From Adhaeribacter radiodurans (GTDB lineage Bacteria > Bacteroidota > Bacteroidia > Cytophagales > Hymenobacteraceae), in NCBI RefSeq assembly GCF_014075995.1, contig NZ_CP055153.1, positions 4,030,001-4,094,000 on the forward strand: a stretch of 64,000 nt of DNA, written 5' to 3'. Below are positions 19,447-27,127 of the stretch, piece by piece. The translations under genes were made by a program, and so were the position numbers. Within the stretch, counting starts at the first letter, position 1, and every line of letters starts with the position of its first letter. Below the pieces are notes generated by a model. It was given only the letters and a program-made list of their open reading frames with translations. It was not told where the DNA came from and searched no databases.

Positions 19447-21675
19447 ATGAACAATAATACCCGAAGTAGTTATTTTTCCGGCTTATTCTTAAAAGTAAGC
19501 CGTTTATTGGTTTTAATATTGCTCACGAATATGGCAGCTTTTGCTCAAAAAGCTACGGTTATTCCCATTGAAACGCAGCACTTTGGTATGGCGCTGCAGG
19601 TAGGTACCGACAAGCGGGTAGGTATTATTCACTTCGGCACCAAATTAAATAATAGCAGCGAATACCAGTATTCCCCTGCCATGTACCACCGCGGCGACGA
19701 TTATTCCGGCATTTTAAACTCGGCGTACACGCCCAGCGGCTCGCGCAACCTGGTAGAGCCGGCCTTAGAAGTTAGGCACGCCGATGGCAATACTTCGTTG
19801 GATTTACAGTACGTGCGCCACAACGTGCAGAAGACCGATAATAACGTTTCTACTACCAGCGTGGTACTCCGCGATCCCGTTTATGGTCTGGAAGTTACTT
19901 TACATTACAAAGTATACGCCGCCGAAGACGTGGTGGAGCAATGGTCGGTGATAAAAAACAACGAAAAAGGGAATGTAACCCTTAACAAATACGCCTCGGC
20001 TAATTTGTACGTATCGGCTAATAATTACTGGCTGAAACATTACCACGGCGACTGGGCCAAAGAAATGCAAACCGAAGAAGTTCGCCTGACATCGGGCATT
20101 AAAGTACTCGACACCAAACTGGGTACGCGCGCCAATTTGTACCAACCGCCTACTTTTATGGTATCTCTGGACCGGCCCGCCACCGAAGACGAAGGCCGCG
20201 TACTGTACGGTTCCGTAGAATGGACGGGTAATTTTAGAGTTGATTTGGAAGTGGACCCCTTAAATAATTTGCGTTTAATTGCCGGGATTAACCCGCACGC
20301 TTCGGAATATACTTTAAGCAAAGGCCAGGAATTTACTACTCCCCTATTTTTATACACTTACTCCGATAAAGGGAAAGGCGCTGCCAGCCGCAGCCTGCAC
20401 CGCTGGGCCCGCAAATACCGCATTATGCAGGGCAATGGTTCCCGTCTTACTTTATTGAACAACTGGGAAGCTACTTTCTTTGATTTTGACGAGCCTAAAC
20501 TGGCCGAACTAATTAAAGATACGAAAAAGCTAGGCGTAGATATGTTCTTGTTAGACGATGGCTGGTTCGCGAACAAATACCCCCGCAACGCCGATAACGC
20601 CGGCTTGGGCGATTGGCAGGAAAACGTAAAAAAATTACCGCACGGCATTGGGTATTTAGTAAAAGAAGCTCAGAACAATCAGGTAAAATTTGGTATTTGG
20701 GTAGAACCCGAAATGGTAAACCCCAAAAGTGAGCTCTACGAAAAACACCCGGAATGGGTAATTCGGGAACCCAAACGACCTGAGCATTTGTACCGCAACC
20801 AATTGGTACTCGATTTAAGTAATCCCAAAGTGCAGGATTTTGTGTTTGGTGTTTTAGATAACATTATGACCAAAAACCCAAACGTGGCTTTCTTTAAATG
20901 GGATTGCAACGCGGTTATTTACAACGCGCATTCCGAATATTTAAAAGATAAGCAATCGCATTTGTACGTAGATTACGTGCGGGGCCTGTACAAAGTGCTC
21001 GAACGTTTCCGGGCCAAATACCCGGATTTGCCCATGATGCTGTGTTCCGGGGGCGGGGGCCGCGTAGATTACGCTGCCTTAAAATACTTTACCGAGTTTT
21101 GGGTAAGCGATAACACCGACCCACTGGAACGTATTTTTATGCAGTACGAATATTCTTACTTTTTCCCGGCCATTGCCCACGACAACCACGTTACCGACTG
21201 GGGCAAACAACCCATTAAATTCCGGACCGACGTGGCCATGATAGGAAAACTAGGTTTTGATATTGTAGTAAGCAAACTGGAACCAAACGATTTAAAATTC
21301 TGCCAGGATGCGGTAAGCACCTATAAATCGTTGAGCGACGTAATCTGGCACGGCGATTTGTACCGCTTAGCCAGCCCCCGCGAAAACGATTTTGCCTCGG
21401 TTATGTACGTAAACGAAGGGCAAAACCGGGCGGTTATGTTTAATTACCTGGTGTCTAATCGCTACGATGCCGGTACTCTATCGCCTGTTAAAATGGGCGG
21501 CTTAGACCCTAACAAAAAGTATCAGGTAAAAGAAATTAATTTGTATCCCGGCACCCAATCGTCAATTTCTGGCAACACCTCCTACTCCGGCAATTACCTC
21601 ATGACGGTCGGCTTCAACCCCAACGTAAATGCCCGCCGTACCAGCGTTATTCTGGAAGTAACCGAAGCCCGTTAG
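19447..21675 (+). CDS. Alpha-galactosidase, GH36, secreted
   Basis: 742 residues. Signal peptide 1-34 (MAAFAQ). An N-terminal beta-supersandwich is followed by the (beta/alpha)8 barrel from about residue 335 (LTLLNNWEATFFDFDE, MFLLDDGWF, KFGIWVEPEMVNP). The nucleophile is D486 in FFKWDCN and the acid/base D555 in WVSDNTDP; CSGGGGRVD lies between them. Length and all blocks match GH36. It cleaves terminal alpha-1,6-galactose from raffinose-type sugars or galactomannan/xylan side chains. Periplasmic. Preceded by the repeat block; followed by a 14-bp stem at 21743-21773. Confidence 0.95.
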   Translation: MNNNTRSSYFSGLFLKVSRLLVLILLTNMAAFAQKATVIPIETQHFGMALQVGTDKRVGIIHFGTKLNNSSEYQYSPAMYHRGDDYSGILNSAYTPSGSRNLVEPALEVRHADGNTSLDLQYVRHNVQKTDNNVSTTSVVLRDPVYGLEVTLHYKVYAAEDVVEQWSVIKNNEKGNVTLNKYASANLYVSANNYWLKHYHGDWAKEMQTEEVRLTSGIKVLDTKLGTRANLYQPPTFMVSLDRPATEDEGRVLYGSVEWTGNFRVDLEVDPLNNLRLIAGINPHASEYTLSKGQEFTTPLFLYTYSDKGKGAASRSLHRWARKYRIMQGNGSRLTLLNNWEATFFDFDEPKLAELIKDTKKLGVDMFLLDDGWFANKYPRNADNAGLGDWQENVKKLPHGIGYLVKEAQNNQVKFGIWVEPEMVNPKSELYEKHPEWVIREPKRPEHLYRNQLVLDLSNPKVQDFVFGVLDNIMTKNPNVAFFKWDCNAVIYNAHSEYLKDKQSHLYVDYVRGLYKVLERFRAKYPDLPMMLCSGGGGRVDYAALKYFTEFWVSDNTDPLERIFMQYEYSYFFPAIAHDNHVTDWGKQPIKFRTDVAMIGKLGFDIVVSKLEPNDLKFCQDAVSTYKSLSDVIWHGDLYRLASPRENDFASVMYVNEGQNRAVMFNYLVSNRYDAGTLSPVKMGGLDPNKKYQVKEINLYPGTQSSISGNTSYSGNYLMTVGFNPNVNARRTSVILEVTEAR

Positions 21676-21742
21676 ATGTTGGCTTGTTCCGGTTATCGGT
21701 TGTTTTTGGCAGGATATATGGAATAAGGAAGTAAAATACAAT

Positions 21743-21773
21743 GCAGATAAACGGAGTAACTCCGTTTATCTGC
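21743..21773 (+). terminator. 14-bp perfect hairpin after the GH36 gene
   Basis: GCAGATAAACGGAG, loop TAA, then the exact complement. No T run follows, so Rho-independent function is uncertain. It ends 2 bases before the GTTAGCT that I read as the left edge of a gene cassette. Confidence 0.65.
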
Positions 21774-21775
21774 TA

Positions 21776-21785
21776 GTTAGCTATG
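21776..21785 (+). other. Cassette left boundary (GTTAGCTATG)
   Basis: GTTAGCT fits the integron recombination core GTTRRRY except at one position. GTTAGCTATG is the exact reverse complement of CATAGCTAAC at 22737-22746, on the far side of the lipoprotein gene. In integron cassettes the left end and the attC left core are complementary in just this way, because both belong to the same circular form. Confidence 0.5.
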
Positions 21786-21790
21786 ATTTT

Positions 21791-22741
21791 ATGAATAAAG
21801 TTTACTTCACCATAACCCTATTAACTTTTTTGGCAGCTATCGCTTCTTGCCAAGACAGGAAGAATATTGTTGTGACTGGAAAAGTTATTGATGAAAAAAC
21901 AGGAGAACCCATTACCAACGCTGAAGTTGTTGTGCTAGGTTGGTATATGAACAATATAGATGATGCTTCCTTTGCTAAACAGAATTTAACGACAGATAAA
22001 AACGGAAACTTTAAAGCCCGTTTTGTGAAGGGGCATCAGATTGACGTAGCTTCAAAAGCCAAAGGCTACCAACCGACTAGAAGTTACAATGAATTAAATA
22101 AGAACGAGATTGTAGTTAATCTAAAGTTGGCAAGGCAACGGGATAACCCTACTCTGAAGTCTTTGCTCACGACAGATAATATTTCAGCAGAGCCTGGGAA
22201 AGAACCAACTTTTTTGAGAGTTCGGATTTACGGTGACAAAGACGGCAAAGAACTGGATTTTAAAAAAGCAGAGACTTTTGGATATGATTTCAAATCTCAA
22301 ACTACCCATTCCGACACCACACAATCTGATATTTGGTTCAGAATTATTAAAAAGGAAGAACAGCCAACAACAATAGTAGCAGCACCAAATGGAGGAATTA
22401 TCCCAATCCTCAATAAGGACGTTAACACTTCCTTGTTGTATGAAAAAACTATAGCACCTACATCGGGATATTTTTCACCTTACCGATTAAAAGGAGATGA
22501 AGCCGGATTCTTCGTGCTTTGTAGGGATGGCAAGTCCTACGGCAAAATCATTTTAGAGCAATCTGAAGTTGACCTCAGTTCCCCAGATGGCAAGGGTAGC
22601 TTCTACAAAGAGTTCGGCAATAATTTCAGTAGCATTTATCAGACAAACGGGACTAACGATTTATCATACAGCGTATCTGATATTGACCTTGAAGATTTTT
22701 TAGTGACTTTAGGTACAGATAGAGCAAAGAAAAAACCATAG
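21791..22741 (+). CDS. Cassette-borne lipoprotein with carboxypeptidase-regulatory-like domain
   Basis: 316 residues. Lipoprotein signal with lipobox IASC at about residue 20. Residues about 27-115 are a transthyretin-like/CarboxypepD_reg module (VVTGKVIDEKTGEPITNAEVVVLG...TTDKNGNFKARF). The remaining 200 residues are unrecognised, with LRVRIYGDKDGKELDF and IWFRIIKKEE strands. Its codons look more A/T-rich than those of the GH36 gene before it. The ATG is only 9 bases after the cassette left edge, and the stop overlaps the attC-like site. That tight packing, plus the lack of a visible promoter, suits an integron cassette gene. Surface or periplasmic role unknown. Confidence 0.85.
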   Translation: MNKVYFTITLLTFLAAIASCQDRKNIVVTGKVIDEKTGEPITNAEVVVLGWYMNNIDDASFAKQNLTTDKNGNFKARFVKGHQIDVASKAKGYQPTRSYNELNKNEIVVNLKLARQRDNPTLKSLLTTDNISAEPGKEPTFLRVRIYGDKDGKELDFKKAETFGYDFKSQTTHSDTTQSDIWFRIIKKEEQPTTIVAAPNGGIIPILNKDVNTSLLYEKTIAPTSGYFSPYRLKGDEAGFFVLCRDGKSYGKIILEQSEVDLSSPDGKGSFYKEFGNNFSSIYQTNGTNDLSYSVSDIDLEDFLVTLGTDRAKKKP

Positions 22742-22803
22742 CTAACAATGTATAAACGTCACCCTTCGGCCGACGGCCTAGCGCGTCGTTTACACTAGTC
22801 CGT
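22740..22803 (+). other. attC-like recombination site (left part, split by IS1182)
   Basis: From the stop codon: AGCTAAC (left core), then TATAAACG ... CGTTTACA forming an inner stem around a G/C-rich tip (GGCCGACGGCC), then AGTCCGT. The right core continues beyond the IS1182 element as TTAGTGG from 24470. Rejoined, the site is about 70 bases, a normal attC length. The imperfect stem and orientation fit attC; a plain terminator cannot be excluded. Confidence 0.5.
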
Positions 22804-24465
22804 CAGACTGTCTAATAACATAATATAATTTGTAACCTCCAGTAGGCTAAGTAACTAAACAATAAAGTACTAGCTCACTTACCTGATGAAGTTTATACAA
22901 AGTAGCCCACGCAGTCAAGTTCCTTTTTCCGGTGCCAGCCTGGAGGAGGCCATTTCAGCGGAGAATGAGGTGCGTTACATCGATGCCTTTGTAGACGCAC
23001 TCCCGCTCCAGAAACTAGGCTTCCGCCTGGCGTTTACCGAGAATGGCCGCCCGGCTTACCATCCAGCCATCTTACTTAAGCTCTTTATCTATGGCTATCT
23101 CAATCGCATCCGCTCCTCCCGGTGCCTGGAGAAGGAATGCCACCGCAATATTGAAGTGATGTGGCTGCTGGGCCAACTCACCCCGGACCACAACACGATT
23201 GCCAACTTCCGCAAGAATTACCCCAAAGCCATCACCCAGGTCTTTCGGACCACCGTTCAAATGGCCCGTCACTTTCAACTGATCGGGGGACAACTGCTGG
23301 CTGGTGACAGCACGAAGCTGCGGGCTCAGAACTCCAAGAAAAATAACTATAACCAAAGCAAGATTGCGCGTCACCTGGCCTACATTGAAAACAAGCTGGC
23401 TGGCTTCACCCAAGCCCTTGCCCTAGTAGATAATGCCGCGGAAAGAGAGCAGATCACCCAGGCGATGACCAAGCACTTGCAGCGGCAACAGTATTACCGC
23501 CAGTTGGCTCAGCAGCTAAAGAACTCGGGAGAGGAACAGGTGTCCACCTCAGATCCAGAAAGCCGGCAGATGATCATCCGAAATACTATTACCGAAGTAG
23601 CTTACAACGTACAGACTACCGTAGACGCCAAGCACTGCCTGCCTATTGACTACCAAGTGACGAACCACAACGACAGTAAGGCGATGGGTAATATGCTGCG
23701 CCGGGCCAAGAGTATCGTTGGTCATAGTTCCTTCTCCGCTCTCTTTGACAAGGGGTACCATACGGGCTCAGAACTGGAAATCGCCCAACGGCTGGGTATC
23801 CGCACACTGGTAGCCATTCCAGCACCGGCTGCTAGTGCCCCGGACGCCAACTACAACCTAGAGCACTTTGCCTATGACCCTGCCAGAAATGTGTATGTCT
23901 GCCCGCAGCAACAGGTGCTTACCACCAACGGTAGCATCTACACTAAAAATCGGGGTTATTCCAACCAGACTAGCTTTTGGCAGTACCGCACCAGGTCCTG
24001 TAAAAGTTGTCTCGCCCGTATTCGCTGCACCACGGCTAAAAACGGCAAACTTATCGAACGCAACGTCTACTCCCCCGTTTTTGAAAAGAATCGAGCGAAC
24101 ATTACCGCCAACCCGGAGCTTTACAAGCGGCGACAGGCCATTGTCGAGCATCCTTTCGGCACCCTGAAAAGGCAGTGGGGCTACAGCTACGTACTCTCCA
24201 AGAAGGGCATAGCCCGTGCTTCGGCTGATGTGGGACTCATGCTGGTGGCCTACAACCTACGCCGGCTGCTCCACATACTGGGGATGCAGGCCGTTATGGC
24301 TTATATCCAAGCACGAGCTGCCTTACTAATCGGCTCCCGTACTAAAGTTAGCGTACAGTTGCAGCGATACATGGAAAATATAACAATAAGTCTAAACTGC
24401 TACTTTATATATCTTAAGAATACTATCTTTATGAAACTATCTAGCCGAGGTTATTAGACAAACTG
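22804..24465 (+). mobile_element. IS1182-family insertion sequence
   Basis: 1662 bases. The ends are CAGACTGTCTAATAAC on the left and, as reverse complement, CAGTTTGTCTAATAAC on the right: 16-bp terminal inverted repeats with two mismatches. Flanked by CCGT at 22800-22803 and again at 24466-24469, read as a 4-bp target duplication. It carries one intact transposase gene whose stop codon lies inside the right repeat. Looks recent and possibly active. Confidence 0.88.
22886..24457 (+). CDS. IS1182-family DDE transposase
   Basis: 523 residues. The N-terminal domain carries PAILLKLFIYGYLNRIRSSR and LGQLTPDHNTIANFR, typical for IS1182/DUF772. The acidic triad is visible as GDSTKLRAQNSKKNNY (about residue 139), FDKGYHTGSE (about 290) and EHPFGTLKRQWGY (about 420). 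A cysteine cluster (SCKSCLARIRC) lies near 375. Full length with no interruption. The C-terminal 40 residues run into the element's end. It catalyses cut-and-paste or copy transposition of its own element. Confidence 0.95.
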   Translation: MKFIQSSPRSQVPFSGASLEEAISAENEVRYIDAFVDALPLQKLGFRLAFTENGRPAYHPAILLKLFIYGYLNRIRSSRCLEKECHRNIEVMWLLGQLTPDHNTIANFRKNYPKAITQVFRTTVQMARHFQLIGGQLLAGDSTKLRAQNSKKNNYNQSKIARHLAYIENKLAGFTQALALVDNAAEREQITQAMTKHLQRQQYYRQLAQQLKNSGEEQVSTSDPESRQMIIRNTITEVAYNVQTTVDAKHCLPIDYQVTNHNDSKAMGNMLRRAKSIVGHSSFSALFDKGYHTGSELEIAQRLGIRTLVAIPAPAASAPDANYNLEHFAYDPARNVYVCPQQQVLTTNGSIYTKNRGYSNQTSFWQYRTRSCKSCLARIRCTTAKNGKLIERNVYSPVFEKNRANITANPELYKRRQAIVEHPFGTLKRQWGYSYVLSKKGIARASADVGLMLVAYNLRRLLHILGMQAVMAYIQARAALLIGSRTKVSVQLQRYMENITISLNCYFIYLKNTIFMKLSSRGY

Positions 24466-24489
24466 CCGTTAGTGGCAATCAATAAAAAA

Positions 24490-24515
24490 ATGAAAAGGAT
24501 ATTAGTTACAGGTTC
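24490..24515 (+). pseudogene. NAD-dependent epimerase/SDR start, cut by the IS3 element
   Basis: ATG at 24490 opens MKRILVTGS, and joining across the IS3 element and one copy of its GTTC duplication (continuing at 25798) gives MKRILVTGSSGKLGE. That is the Rossmann NAD(P)-binding start of epimerase/extended-SDR proteins. After GKLGE the similarity ends and a stop follows at 25844-25846, so the rest of the gene is lost. The ATG lies 22 bases after the attC right core, as expected for a second cassette gene. Confidence 0.7.
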
Positions 24516-24578
24516 TGTAAGTGCCCCATTTTTCGGACAGTGTAGATGAGACTATTCTCATTGTTTTTACTACCACTA

Positions 24579-25463
24579 TTATGAAGTAGGAATGTGGTAA
24601 ACTGGCTGCGCTGAAGGAGTGTGCTGGGGCGAGTTTTCCATATTCCCACTTCTGCTTTTCAGCAACCACTCGTTTGGGGTCAGATTTCCTAAAGCTTCAT
24701 GCGGCCTACGGGTATTATATTCTTCTAGCCAATTTTCTGTCAGTTGCCGGACTTCCGCCAGTTCAAAAAACAGATAAGCATCTAATATTTCCCGGCGATA
24801 ACTGCCGTTAAAGCGTTCGATAAAGCCATTCTGCATGGGTTTACCCGGCTGAATATAATGGATGTTAATTTCTTTTTCTTTACACCAGTTCGTAAAATCA
24901 ACACTAGTAAACTCCGGGCCATTATCTACCCGGATGGCCGTTGGCTTACCGCGCCAGTCAATCAGCTGCTCCAGAGTGCGAATCACTCTTTTGGCGGTAA
25001 TTGAAGTTGCTATTTCAATGACCAGTGCTTCCCGGTTACAATCATCTAGCACATTCAAGGTCCGAAACTTATTACCTGATGCTAAGCTATCACTCATAAA
25101 ATCCATGCTCCAGCTACTGTTAATCTCTACCGGCTGCAGCAATGGTTGCTTTACTCGGGTTGGTAGCCTACGTTTTCCTTTTCTCTTTTTGTTGAACTTT
25201 AACAGTTTATAGATCCGGTATACCCGTTTGTGATTCCACGGCTGACCGGCTCTTTTCAGATAAGCTAACAGCTTCCGAAAACCATAAGCTGGATGAGCAG
25301 CAGCTAACTCCTGCAAGGCGGTAATCACTTCGGAATCATCTTTACAGCTCTTGTAATAAAATTGAGAACGGGTCAGACCAGTTAAGTGGCAGGCCCTGAC
25401 AACGGGTAAGTCGTAGTCCGAGATGATTTCTGCAGTCAACTGCTTTTGCTGCCAGAGCCCCAA
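24579..25463 (-). CDS. IS3-family transposase OrfB
   Basis: 294 residues shown from its first ATG; in practice expressed mainly as an OrfAB fusion. It has the HTH_21-like segment (VVRACHLTGLTRSQFYYK, AAHPAYGFRKLLAYLKRAG) and the integrase catalytic core with DDE: WSMDFMSDSL, IRVDNGPEFTS and GFIERFNGSYRREILDAY. Complete, with the usual C-terminal RRPHEALGNLTPNEW. Catalyses strand transfer of the element. Confidence 0.94.
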   Translation of the reverse strand: MGLWQQKQLTAEIISDYDLPVVRACHLTGLTRSQFYYKSCKDDSEVITALQELAAAHPAYGFRKLLAYLKRAGQPWNHKRVYRIYKLLKFNKKRKGKRRLPTRVKQPLLQPVEINSSWSMDFMSDSLASGNKFRTLNVLDDCNREALVIEIATSITAKRVIRTLEQLIDWRGKPTAIRVDNGPEFTSVDFTNWCKEKEINIHYIQPGKPMQNGFIERFNGSYRREILDAYLFFELAEVRQLTENWLEEYNTRRPHEALGNLTPNEWLLKSRSGNMENSPQHTPSAQPVYHIPTS

Positions 25464-25726
25464 CCTTTTTTTGTGATGACCTCCTTCAGGATAGAGTGAT
25501 CCAAGCTTAAATCAGCATACATTTTCTTTAATCGGGCATTCTCCTCTTCTAACTCTTTGAGCCGCTTTACATCCGAAGCTTCCATGCCGCCGTATTGGCT
25601 CTTCCACCGGTAAAAGGTAGCCCGGCTAACTTCTAATTCCCGGCAAATGTCTTCTGTCTTCCGACCCGACTCATTTTCCTGTAGCGATTTGATAATCTGA
25701 CTTTCGGTAATCCTTGTCTTTTTCAT
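25436..25726 (-). CDS. IS3-family OrfA (helix-turn-helix)
   Basis: 96 residues: a helix-turn-helix (ESQIIKSLQENESGRKTEDICRELEVSRATFYRWKSQYGG), then a leucine-zipper-like coiled coil (VKRLKELEEENARLKKMYADLSLDHSILKEVI). The KKMYADLSLDHSILKEVI type is that of the IS407 group. It overlaps orfB by 28 bases. Binds the element's ends and multimerises the transposase. Confidence 0.93.
   Translation of the reverse strand: MKKTRITESQIIKSLQENESGRKTEDICRELEVSRATFYRWKSQYGGMEASDVKRLKELEEENARLKKMYADLSLDHSILKEVITKKGWGSGSKSS
25466..25472 (-). other. Programmed -1 frameshift site (A7)
   Basis: On the minus strand orfA reads ATC ACA AAA AAA GGT. Slipping back by one on the A7 tract gives ACA AAA AAA AGG TTG GGG CTC, which enters the orfB frame. 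This is the standard way IS3 elements make OrfAB. Confidence 0.8.
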
Positions 25727-26008
25727 TTGTCCAGTTTTAAGGTATCCATTTTCTGTCTCCTTTCAAACTGTCCGATTTTTAGGGATACTTACAGTTCTTC
25801 AGGGAAGTTGGGGGAAAGAAATTGTTCGGCTCCTAAGAATCAATAGTACATAAAAAATGAAAATCTTGTACTTTAATCGATTTTTTCCATAATATCCTAG
25901 ATATAAGAAAACTTACAATGAGTATTACTGGTAAGTTACTACCTATAAAATCATTCTATCATTTAAAATAATATTCTGCTAAATATCTATCACCACATCT
26001 TTACTATA

Positions 26009-26419
26009 ATGAAAATCCTGAACTTTTATATTGTGCTTGCTTTTGCAATAATCTTTAGTAGTTGTAACGATGATGCTGCTGAGGTGATGCCATCCAAAGC
26101 TAAGGAGAATGCACAATCCATTAAAAAATTATTGAGTGATAATCAGAGCACTCTTAAATTTGCTAAAATCTATGAATATAACCCAGCAACAGGAGATTGG
26201 AGGTTAGCTGCAGATAGTCAATTATGGGTAGAGAAGGAAACTTTTTTCTATGTAGAGGGCAATTATTTCTTTCTAAATGGTGCATCATCTAAGACCTATC
26301 CAATAAATAATACCCCTACCCATCAAATGAGCGGCTACTATTATTTTAATTTAGAGTACCTGGTTGCTTTTGAAATGAGTGGCGATAAGGAGTTTATCTT
26401 TTTGTATTTTAAACATTAA
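26009..26419 (+). CDS. Small lipoprotein of unknown function
   Basis: 136 residues. Lipoprotein signal peptide with lipobox FSSC at about residues 16-19, then an Asp/Asn-rich start. The mature part is predicted beta-rich with many aromatic residues (FAKIYEYNPATGDWRLAADSQLWV, FFYVEGNYFFLNG, MSGYYYFNLEYLVAFEM). I do not recognise a family. It sits just before an attC-like site, so it may be another cassette gene, although no matching left boundary is visible upstream. Confidence 0.75.
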   Translation: MKILNFYIVLAFAIIFSSCNDDAAEVMPSKAKENAQSIKKLLSDNQSTLKFAKIYEYNPATGDWRLAADSQLWVEKETFFYVEGNYFFLNGASSKTYPINNTPTHQMSGYYYFNLEYLVAFEMSGDKEFIFLYFKH

Positions 26420-26426
26420 AAATAGA

Positions 26427-26493
26427 GGCTAATAACTGTGGCTACCCACACCTTTACGGTAGCTGCCCCACTCCATAGCCCAGTCCGTTCGCC
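26427..26493 (+). other. Second attC-like palindrome
   Basis: 67 bases running from GGCTAATAAC to GTTCGCC, with GGCTA ... TAGCC pairing across a GGTAGC-containing tip. It ends in AGTCCGTT, identical to the eight bases leading into the right core of the first site. It starts 7 bases after the lipoprotein stop. The cores are poorer matches than in the first site. Confidence 0.35.
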
Positions 26494-26560: not shown

Positions 26561-27127
26561 ATGAAAGAATTGATGGAATATATATTACAGTTTGGCAACT
26601 TAAATCAACAACAAATTAATCTGGTCGAGAAAAAGGCGACTGAAATACAACTTCAAAAGGGTACGTATTTTTCGTAAGCAGGCAAAATCCCCACCCAAGT
26701 CGGTTTCATTGTGGAAGGTGTTATGCGTGGTTGCTATTACAACAACAAAGGCGAAGAAATAACCCGATGCTTTATTAGTGAGAATAGTATAGTAGTGGAT
26801 TATGTAAATTTTGAGGCCAATACATCCTCCACAGAATATTTACAAGCCAGTACTGACTGTAAGCTTATTGTGTTTTCCAAACCAAATTGGGAAGAACTCT
26901 CGCATACCATTGTGGGCTGGGATAATATCAAAAATAAAATGGTGCAAATATGTATGTTCCAAAAATCTAGAAAAGGCCCGGTAATATCGCAAGATGCCAC
27001 TACCCGTTATTTGGATTTTATAGAAAACTTCCCAACGCTTTCTAACCGCATTCCATTGGCCTACATTGCTTCCTACCTGGGAGTTACGCAACAATCGATG
27101 AGTAGAATAAGAAAGAATATCCGTTAA
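26561..27127 (+). pseudogene. Crp/Fnr-family regulator with a premature stop
   Basis: From ATG 26561 the frame reads MKELMEYILQFGNLNQQQINL ... KGTYFS, then TAA at 26675-26677, then AGKIPTQVGFIVEGVMRGCYY to 27127. With the stop bridged it is a normal 188-residue Crp/Fnr-type protein: a cyclic-nucleotide-binding-like beta-roll (about 25-120) and a C-terminal helix-turn-helix (RIPLAYIASYLGVTQQSMSRIRKNI). The stop replaces the residue usually Glu in KG..FxEAG (GAA to TAA would do it). A shorter product from the ATG at 26711 would lack part of the beta-roll, so the gene is probably dead. Confidence 0.85.

Follow-up and report, generated by a model that had tools for sequence, protein, structure and literature searches.

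The I2 helix of integron integrases is presented as the acquisition that lets these enzymes recombine single-stranded DNA (PMC7790495), and surveys identify IntI by an IntI-specific domain, which IntegronFinder requires (PMC9668308). Reviews count the Bacteroidota among the phyla with integrons (PMC8618304, PMC9668308); a 2008 survey, in which genes were selected by the additional domain or patch, places intI in the Bacteroidetes/Chlorobi group (PMC2426708), and the IntegronFinder 2.0 report gives one complete integron for Bacteroidetes proper, that of Salinibacter ruber (PMC9024848). Insertion at attG sites, described as divergent from the classical att sites, has also been named (PMC12901181). 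Here, I analyse a stretch of 64,000 nucleotides from Adhaeribacter radiodurans (hereafter the window), spanning positions 4030001–4094000 on the larger contig (C2) of a 6.94-Mb, two-contig genome (G000), and the cassette array that it contains. This array probably belongs to an integron lineage run by a ~480-aa recombinase, the window holding a short cassette array at one of 16 secondary attI-like sites. The cassette anatomy, the repeated attI-like site, the cassette differences at orthologous sites, the G/TT boundaries and the linkage of recombinase and site can all be read from the sequences themselves.

A first-pass annotation of the window had proposed an integron-like cassette array without integrase, struck by two insertion sequences (IS). 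This interpretation is supported, and both insertion sequences are real, yet the finding is larger, as it includes a conserved attI-like left boundary and a likely integrase in relatives. The features of the region, including its open reading frames (ORFs), are as follows.

19447–21675, + strand: GH36 alpha-galactosidase gene (Pfam Melibiase), a conserved chromosomal neighbour that anchors the landing site and is not a cassette
21685–21778, + strand: attI-like site, long form, with a 14-bp hairpin and the crossover G at 21776; its core (21741–21783) is scored by the model R1
21741–21776, + strand: 11-codon open frame inside the attI-like site, MQINGVTPFIC followed by a TAG stop that ends on the crossover G
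21777–22802, + strand: cassette 1, from G/TT to the G of the right core, containing a 316-aa ORF (21791–22741)
22737–22803, + strand: attC of cassette 1, its right core split by an insertion sequence and resuming at 24466–24474
22804–24465, + strand: insertion sequence within attC 1, presumably IS1182-type, identified by Pfam, with the transposase at 22886–24457
24466–24515, + strand: right core of attC 1 (GTTAGTG at 24468–24474) and start of cassette 2, with the gene ATG at 24490
24516–25793, - strand: insertion sequence, presumably IS3-type, with ORFs at 24579–25463 and 25436–25726 and ends placed by eye
26009–26419, + strand: 136-aa ORF without Pfam match, the probable last cassette gene
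26440–26493, + strand: degenerate attC-like site with left core ACC instead of AAC, matched by the model R2

The sequence GTTAGCTATG at 21776–21785 has its exact complement, CATAGCTAAC, at 22737–22746, where it overlaps the stop codon of the ORF 21791–22741. The ends of cassette 1 are thus complementary over 10/10 nt, and the boundaries that the first-pass annotation gave to them are exact. The palindrome that follows this stop codon, which had been taken for an attC, was scored with R2, a covariance model built from 26 other attC sites of this genus; it gives 50.4 bits (E 4.2e-11) at 22740–22808, and its bottom strand folds with a z of -2.2. A second attC-like site had also been proposed, and a weak R2 match does stand at 26440–26493 (16.7 bits, E 0.06), but its fold is no better than that of shuffled sequences (z 0.58), and the left end of the cassette carrying it was not found.

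The attI-like site on the left of cassette 1 is a repeated element. Its 43-nt core was made into the covariance model R1, and the window site scores 64.5 bits, being itself part of the training set, which consists of 10 of the 16 sites of its own genome. As DNA, it has 13 matches in that genome, some of which arise because the hairpin also matches its own opposite strand. With R1 (E < 0.012), 16 distinct places were retained that run into GTT, or into TTT in one case, after removal of matches of a site to its own opposite strand, of L057, which is another hairpin next to one of the sites, and of two hairpins without GTT (L056, L065). An R1 match is present in 8/8 genomes of the genus (G000 to G007), the weakest being in G002, and G007 has 18 distinct sites. 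An exact-pattern scan of a collection of genome contigs gave 0 matches, with records near the window genome possibly excluded from it.

Cassettes of the same build are found behind these sites. At 13 of the 16 sites of the window genome, the first gene ends at AAC preceded by the exact complement of the bases after the element (at least 8 nt including the AAC, within about 1.5 kb). The palindrome itself, whose presence beside unrelated genes the annotation had called for, has 4 further DNA matches in the genome, one of them carrying an identical insertion sequence at the same base, with attC-like ends at 13/16 arrays. In three relatives, 29 of 47 GTT-bearing attI-like sites have a complement of at least 8 nt within 3 kb, against a chance level of 370/3760 (9.8%) for random GTT in the related loci. 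At L016, three consecutive cassettes have matching successive ends, two of them found by script and the third by eye.

The script chained 47 cassettes in G000, G003, G004 and G007, and 26 of the 36 distinct sites of moderate length were aligned. In this alignment, 11/11 L-stem pairs vary in both of their arms (63 cells of this kind, compared with 20.5 after shuffling) and 84% of cells are paired, against 65% when shuffled, figures that overstate the case because the presence of a stem guided the choice of sites, for the alignment as for R2. Just 2 stem cells are G-U, a near absence that would fit a DNA rather than an RNA hairpin. R2 matches at E <= 0.05 number 21, 19, 13, 66, 45, 17, 8 and 31 in G000 to G007. 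Among the 111 matches listed for four genomes, 88 have an R1 site upstream of them on their own strand, no more than 15 kb away (14/14 in G000, 47/51 in G003, 9/26 in G004 and 18/20 in G007), and the other 23 have no R1 site near on either side. As far as sequence can tell, the window array and its kin show the attC layout with a paired stem, the complementary cassette start and the mobile G/TT boundaries that mark integron cassette arrays or CALINs (clusters of attC sites lacking integron-integrases).

The comparison of orthologous places separates the site, which is old, from the younger cassettes behind it. The GH36 gene is present in 8/8 genomes of the genus, and the attI-like element directly follows it in four species (G000, G003, G004 and G007); none was seen after this gene in G001, G002 and G005, and the G006 stretch did not cover the region. 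At this locus, the homology of the four species runs through the element, and beyond the crossover there is a different gene in each. The gene of window cassette 1 was called a lipoprotein gene in the first-pass annotation, and its product has a carboxypeptidase-regulatory-like domain in a Pfam scan. It is found in 1/8 genus genomes (E <= 1e-10), with no match in the other seven, and is without conserved synteny. More generally, when 65 sites from four genomes are compared, 37 pairs have an upstream flank in common over at least 200 bp (32 of them join two genomes and 5 lie in a single one), and the downstream 1.2 kb is common to 0 of these 37 (E <= 1e-15), which are not all independent, several belonging to one locus. 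In G003, one cassette is present in four copies, 95–99% alike, behind two attI-like and two attC sites. The copies agree from G/TT to the right core and differ outside on both sides, and one carries an extra base near the left core. The outcomes that the annotation had named as refuting it, namely no attC score, no palindrome beside unrelated genes and a lipoprotein gene in conserved synteny, were all looked for, and none of the three was found.

A loose search with the IntI hidden Markov model gave hits in 14/14 control genomes, and in 0/14 once tightened to E <= 1e-20. At this threshold, two kinds of gene remain in the eight genus genomes. One is of the IntI family and is present in G000 and G003; the other encodes a different, longer recombinase, which in G003 and G006 stands immediately before attI-like sites and whose G004 copy is interrupted. 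This candidate is a ~480-aa tyrosine recombinase with ~200 N-terminal residues that have no Pfam match, and its catalytic residues R, K, HxxR, H and Y are conserved (in the 13-row and printed alignments). Within the family, 66 of the 120 genomes have a match at E <= 1e-40, a number that includes fragments and five genomes with only 45–48% identity over the C-terminal part.

The gene points toward the site and cassettes at a nearly fixed spacing. A TAGTT site comes after the recombinase stop codon in 30/30 loci among the matches listed; of the 53 named loci (L175–L227), 49 have TAGTT downstream, 47 of these at 129–155 bp. Loci with more than 900 bp downstream were searched for cassettes, any GTT no more than 350 bp from the recombinase being accepted as a start, and 43/56 loci gave one that has both a matching R'' and an attC-like stem, against 14/158 control windows inside the gene. 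These loci include more distant relatives (among them Roseivirga, Lacihabitans and Bacteroidales bins), in which a cassette follows the recombinase in 9 of the 13 cases with enough sequence, and none was found at L234, L237, L240 and L248. By genome, recombinase and site are both present in 46, the site only in 7, the recombinase only in 20 and neither in 47, counts that are uncorrected for kinship and rest on cut-offs (E <= 1e-40 for the recombinase, E <= 0.001 for R1) that both miss divergent forms.

By the published definition, this recombinase is not an IntI: it does not show the IntI-specific additional domain (patch, I2 helix). Two recombinases that were scanned score 201.4 and 210.6 bits against TIGR02249 (cut-off 265), and 208 and 213.9 bits against the archaeal XerA model (cut-off 220). 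VchIntI aligns to the recombinase in two pieces, its residues 208–249 remaining unmatched, and the long insertion of IntI1 and of a cyanobacterial (Kovacikia) IntI is missing from the eight recombinase rows printed. A C-terminal SPLD is common to the recombinase and two intact IntI rows, and absent from two Xer-like rows. In a tree with three IntI and two Xer-like rows as reference, the recombinases form a group separate from both, a placement that is unsure because of long branches and allows no rooted conclusion.

In the mechanism proposed here, the recombinase would be encoded beside a primary attI-like site in relatives, acting there in cis, and would act in trans on the dispersed copies of this site. 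The folded attC of single-gene cassettes, reacting as a single strand, would be joined to attI-like sites at G/TT, and cassettes could enter, leave and be replaced in one fixed orientation, while a short reading frame that stops on the crossover base may help translate the first cassette gene. I infer that it is this recombinase that inserts and excises the cassettes. On a wider scale, it is likely that the Bacteroidota hold an integron lineage of their own, either a sister of IntI or convergent with it, in which attC is handled without the I2 helix. The attI-like site of this lineage would have multiplied into landing pads across the genome, stable between species while cassettes are exchanged, and surveys based on the IntI domain would have missed it.

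Several observations weigh against the proposal of a recombinase-run lineage, besides the selection of attC sites for their stem and the training of R1 on the window genome's own sites. At E <= 1e-40, no recombinase match was found in the window genome or in G007, despite their 16 and 18 sites, and the window genome also encodes three other tyrosine recombinases, of 410–425 aa. The candidate is without the region that IntI is considered to need for handling attC. A matching R'' was found neither at 3/16 sites of the window genome (L043, L047, L052) nor at 18/47 sites in the relatives, and no cassette of the kind described above was found behind the recombinase at 13/56 loci. In G004, only 9 of the 26 attC matches listed lie behind a model-detected site, although 4 of the 17 exceptions sit just behind this genome's own interrupted recombinase. 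TAGTT is absent from 20/65 genus sites, only 17/49 recombinase-linked sites fold with z below -1.5, and no codon-position signature is seen in the short frame, where position 2 has the highest entropy. Since no such recombinase was found in the window genome, its arrays would now be fixed or dependent on one from outside. For the same reason, the array of the window is likely to be a fixed remnant, in keeping with its decayed state: one insertion sequence splits the first attC, a second lies in cassette 2, and the last attC is degenerate.

The absence of the recombinase from the window genome would also suit an ordinary cluster of attC sites lacking integron-integrases (CALIN). Here, a canonical IntI, since lost or residing in another cell, would have dropped the cassettes in an attG-like manner, and the shared upstream element would merely be a good target. 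The attC-like sites are of ordinary anatomy, and it has been proposed that CALINs can arise when an IntI encoded elsewhere inserts cassettes off target (PMC8618304). A source could be sought in the IntI-family gene of G000 and G003, all the more as the G000 protein passes TIGR02249 (283.9 bits, cut-off 265); however, the catalytic positions of this protein are altered (the first R is a K, HTLRHS reads YSLRHS, LLGH reads LLGL, and the GKG block is missing), the G003 copy carries a stop, and among the matches listed no attC lies within 15 kb of either gene. Apart from these two, the new recombinase is all that appears at E <= 1e-20 in the eight genus genomes, and the target is a conserved element that several species carry at orthologous loci, which makes an ordinary CALIN an unlikely account. 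The IntI-family gene (G000:C2:4434725-4435633, L006; G003:C1:1659411-1660304, L141) has the same neighbouring gene in both species, and is possibly the relic of a canonical integron.

The scores of the recombinase, close to those of the XerA and XerD families, and its orientation toward the site at a nearly fixed spacing could be those of an island or phage integrase, the element being its attL and the arrays the cargo of one integrated element. This is very improbable, as single cassettes have their own G/TT boundaries and attC, most dispersed sites have no recombinase upstream, and one cassette stands behind two attI-like and two attC sites in a single genome. It is more improbable still that the element is a genome repeat (repetitive extragenic palindrome, miniature inverted-repeat transposable element or terminator) outside recombination, with ordinary accessory genes beside it: although it is repeated with hairpins, and similar hairpins without GTT exist (L056, L065), homologous flanks end at the crossover with different genes beyond, cassette ends are complementary and attC matches are placed on one side.

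I now return to the recombinase-run lineage, and to how its sites came to be dispersed. That the dispersed sites are simple relics of recombinase loci was considered and rejected for most of them, because within 1.3 kb upstream of the 65 genus sites remnants of the recombinase were found only at G007_2666849 and G004_3679519, besides the intact G003 gene. In other genera, several genomes have two or more R1 matches, with a maximum of 8 (in part perhaps one hairpin matched on both strands), and dispersal therefore seems not to be confined to one genus, though it is strongest in that of the window. Some sites are on small contigs, namely G000:C1:112433 (136 kb), G007:C2:110180 (117 kb) and G007:C1:45447 (141 kb, without GTT), and on the 136-kb contig of the window genome attC matches lie behind the attI-like site. 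These contigs are perhaps plasmids, which could carry sites and cassettes between cells. A segment of ~350 bp upstream of the site is common to G000:C1:112433, G000:C2:4471358, G007:C3:4148078, G003:C1:2836638 and others; it contains a large AT-rich palindrome, and in several of them a 36-codon frame reads into the attI-like site. This segment may be the unit that spreads the site.

The window attI-like site folds strongly as DNA (z -7.1), and a clear fold (z below -1.5) is found in 43 of 54 genus 43-mers. A universal hairpin was nonetheless rejected, given the proportion of recombinase-linked sites that fold. TAGTT is present at 45/65 genus sites, and at least 30 open codons precede it in 70% of 57 recombinase-linked loci, against 18% for random TAG. 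The resulting frame has 11 codons in the window and about 36 at many recombinase-linked sites, and its peptide varies from site to site; peptide conservation is not claimed, codon position 2 being the most variable. For ORF-11 in attI1, a role in translational coupling has been reported (PMC8876359), and the frame described here may similarly aid translation of the first cassette gene. This role is put forward only conditionally, because the peptide differs, codon position 2 varies most and 20/65 sites are without TAGTT.

Concerning the remaining parts of the window array, the first element, at 22804–24465, matches DUF772/DDE transposase in Pfam and is flanked by direct repeats CCGT at 22800–22803 and 24466–24469 (ends by eye); I take it to be IS1182-type. 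It has 2 copies in the genome, 100% identical (22804–24465 and L014:9405-11066), both in the same base of an attC-like right core and in the same orientation, and is a possible attC-targeting insertion sequence. The ORF 24579–25463 of the second element, which I take to be IS3-type, matches rve, rve_3 and HTH_21. The cassette 2 gene beginning at 24490 is an epimerase according to the first-pass annotation. Genes that are presumably regulators, mutually similar, come directly after both arrays (26561–27127, without Pfam match, and L015:7015-7584), each followed by an oxidoreductase-like gene; the window copy at 26561–27127 looks interrupted. Cassette genes at L014:8760-9326 and L015:6273-6821 include SUFU-domain and NADAR-domain proteins, and 5 of the 8 cassette or array proteins scanned have no Pfam match. 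An Rfam scan of the window gave nothing but one tRNA.

In the literature searched, which left subscription journals mostly outside, no report of such a system was recognised. Because the IntI-specific domain is required, IntegronFinder would be expected to pass over this recombinase family as integrase, and to list its arrays at best as CALINs. With a recombinase that has no I2 helix and is linked to attC-like arrays, both in Hymenobacteraceae and in Bacteroidota farther away, the I2 requirement becomes directly testable. The dispersed, orthologous attI-like sites would revise the picture of one platform per integron, and offer a natural record of cassette turnover.

The likeness to integrons and CALINs lies in the single-gene cassettes, the attC layout R''/L''/L'/R', the G/TT crossover and the complementary cassette ends, to which is added, in relatives, an attI-like site that adjoins the gene of a tyrosine recombinase, a candidate integrase not found in the window genome. 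Unlike in integrons, this recombinase is without the IntI-specific insertion and below the TIGR02249 cut-off, its gene reads toward the cassettes, the attI-like site is present at 16 places in the window genome, and many sites form hairpins. The attG sites, reportedly described by Loot et al. in 2024, resemble the present sites in that cassettes are found at chromosomal places away from the integrase, but the target here is a single conserved site that occupies orthologous positions in several species. As with ORF-11 of attI1, a short frame (11 codons in the short form found here) spans the site and ends at the crossover, although its TAG ends on the crossover G without needing cassette bases. 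XerA, XerC and XerD are among the best family scores of the recombinase and share its compact catalytic domain without the IntI insertion, whereas the ~200 N-terminal residues without Pfam match, the C-terminal SPLD and the linkage to cassette arrays set it apart from Xer recombinases. What appears to be new here is a candidate family of arrays on dispersed, inherited attI-like sites, with its own candidate integrase outside IntI.

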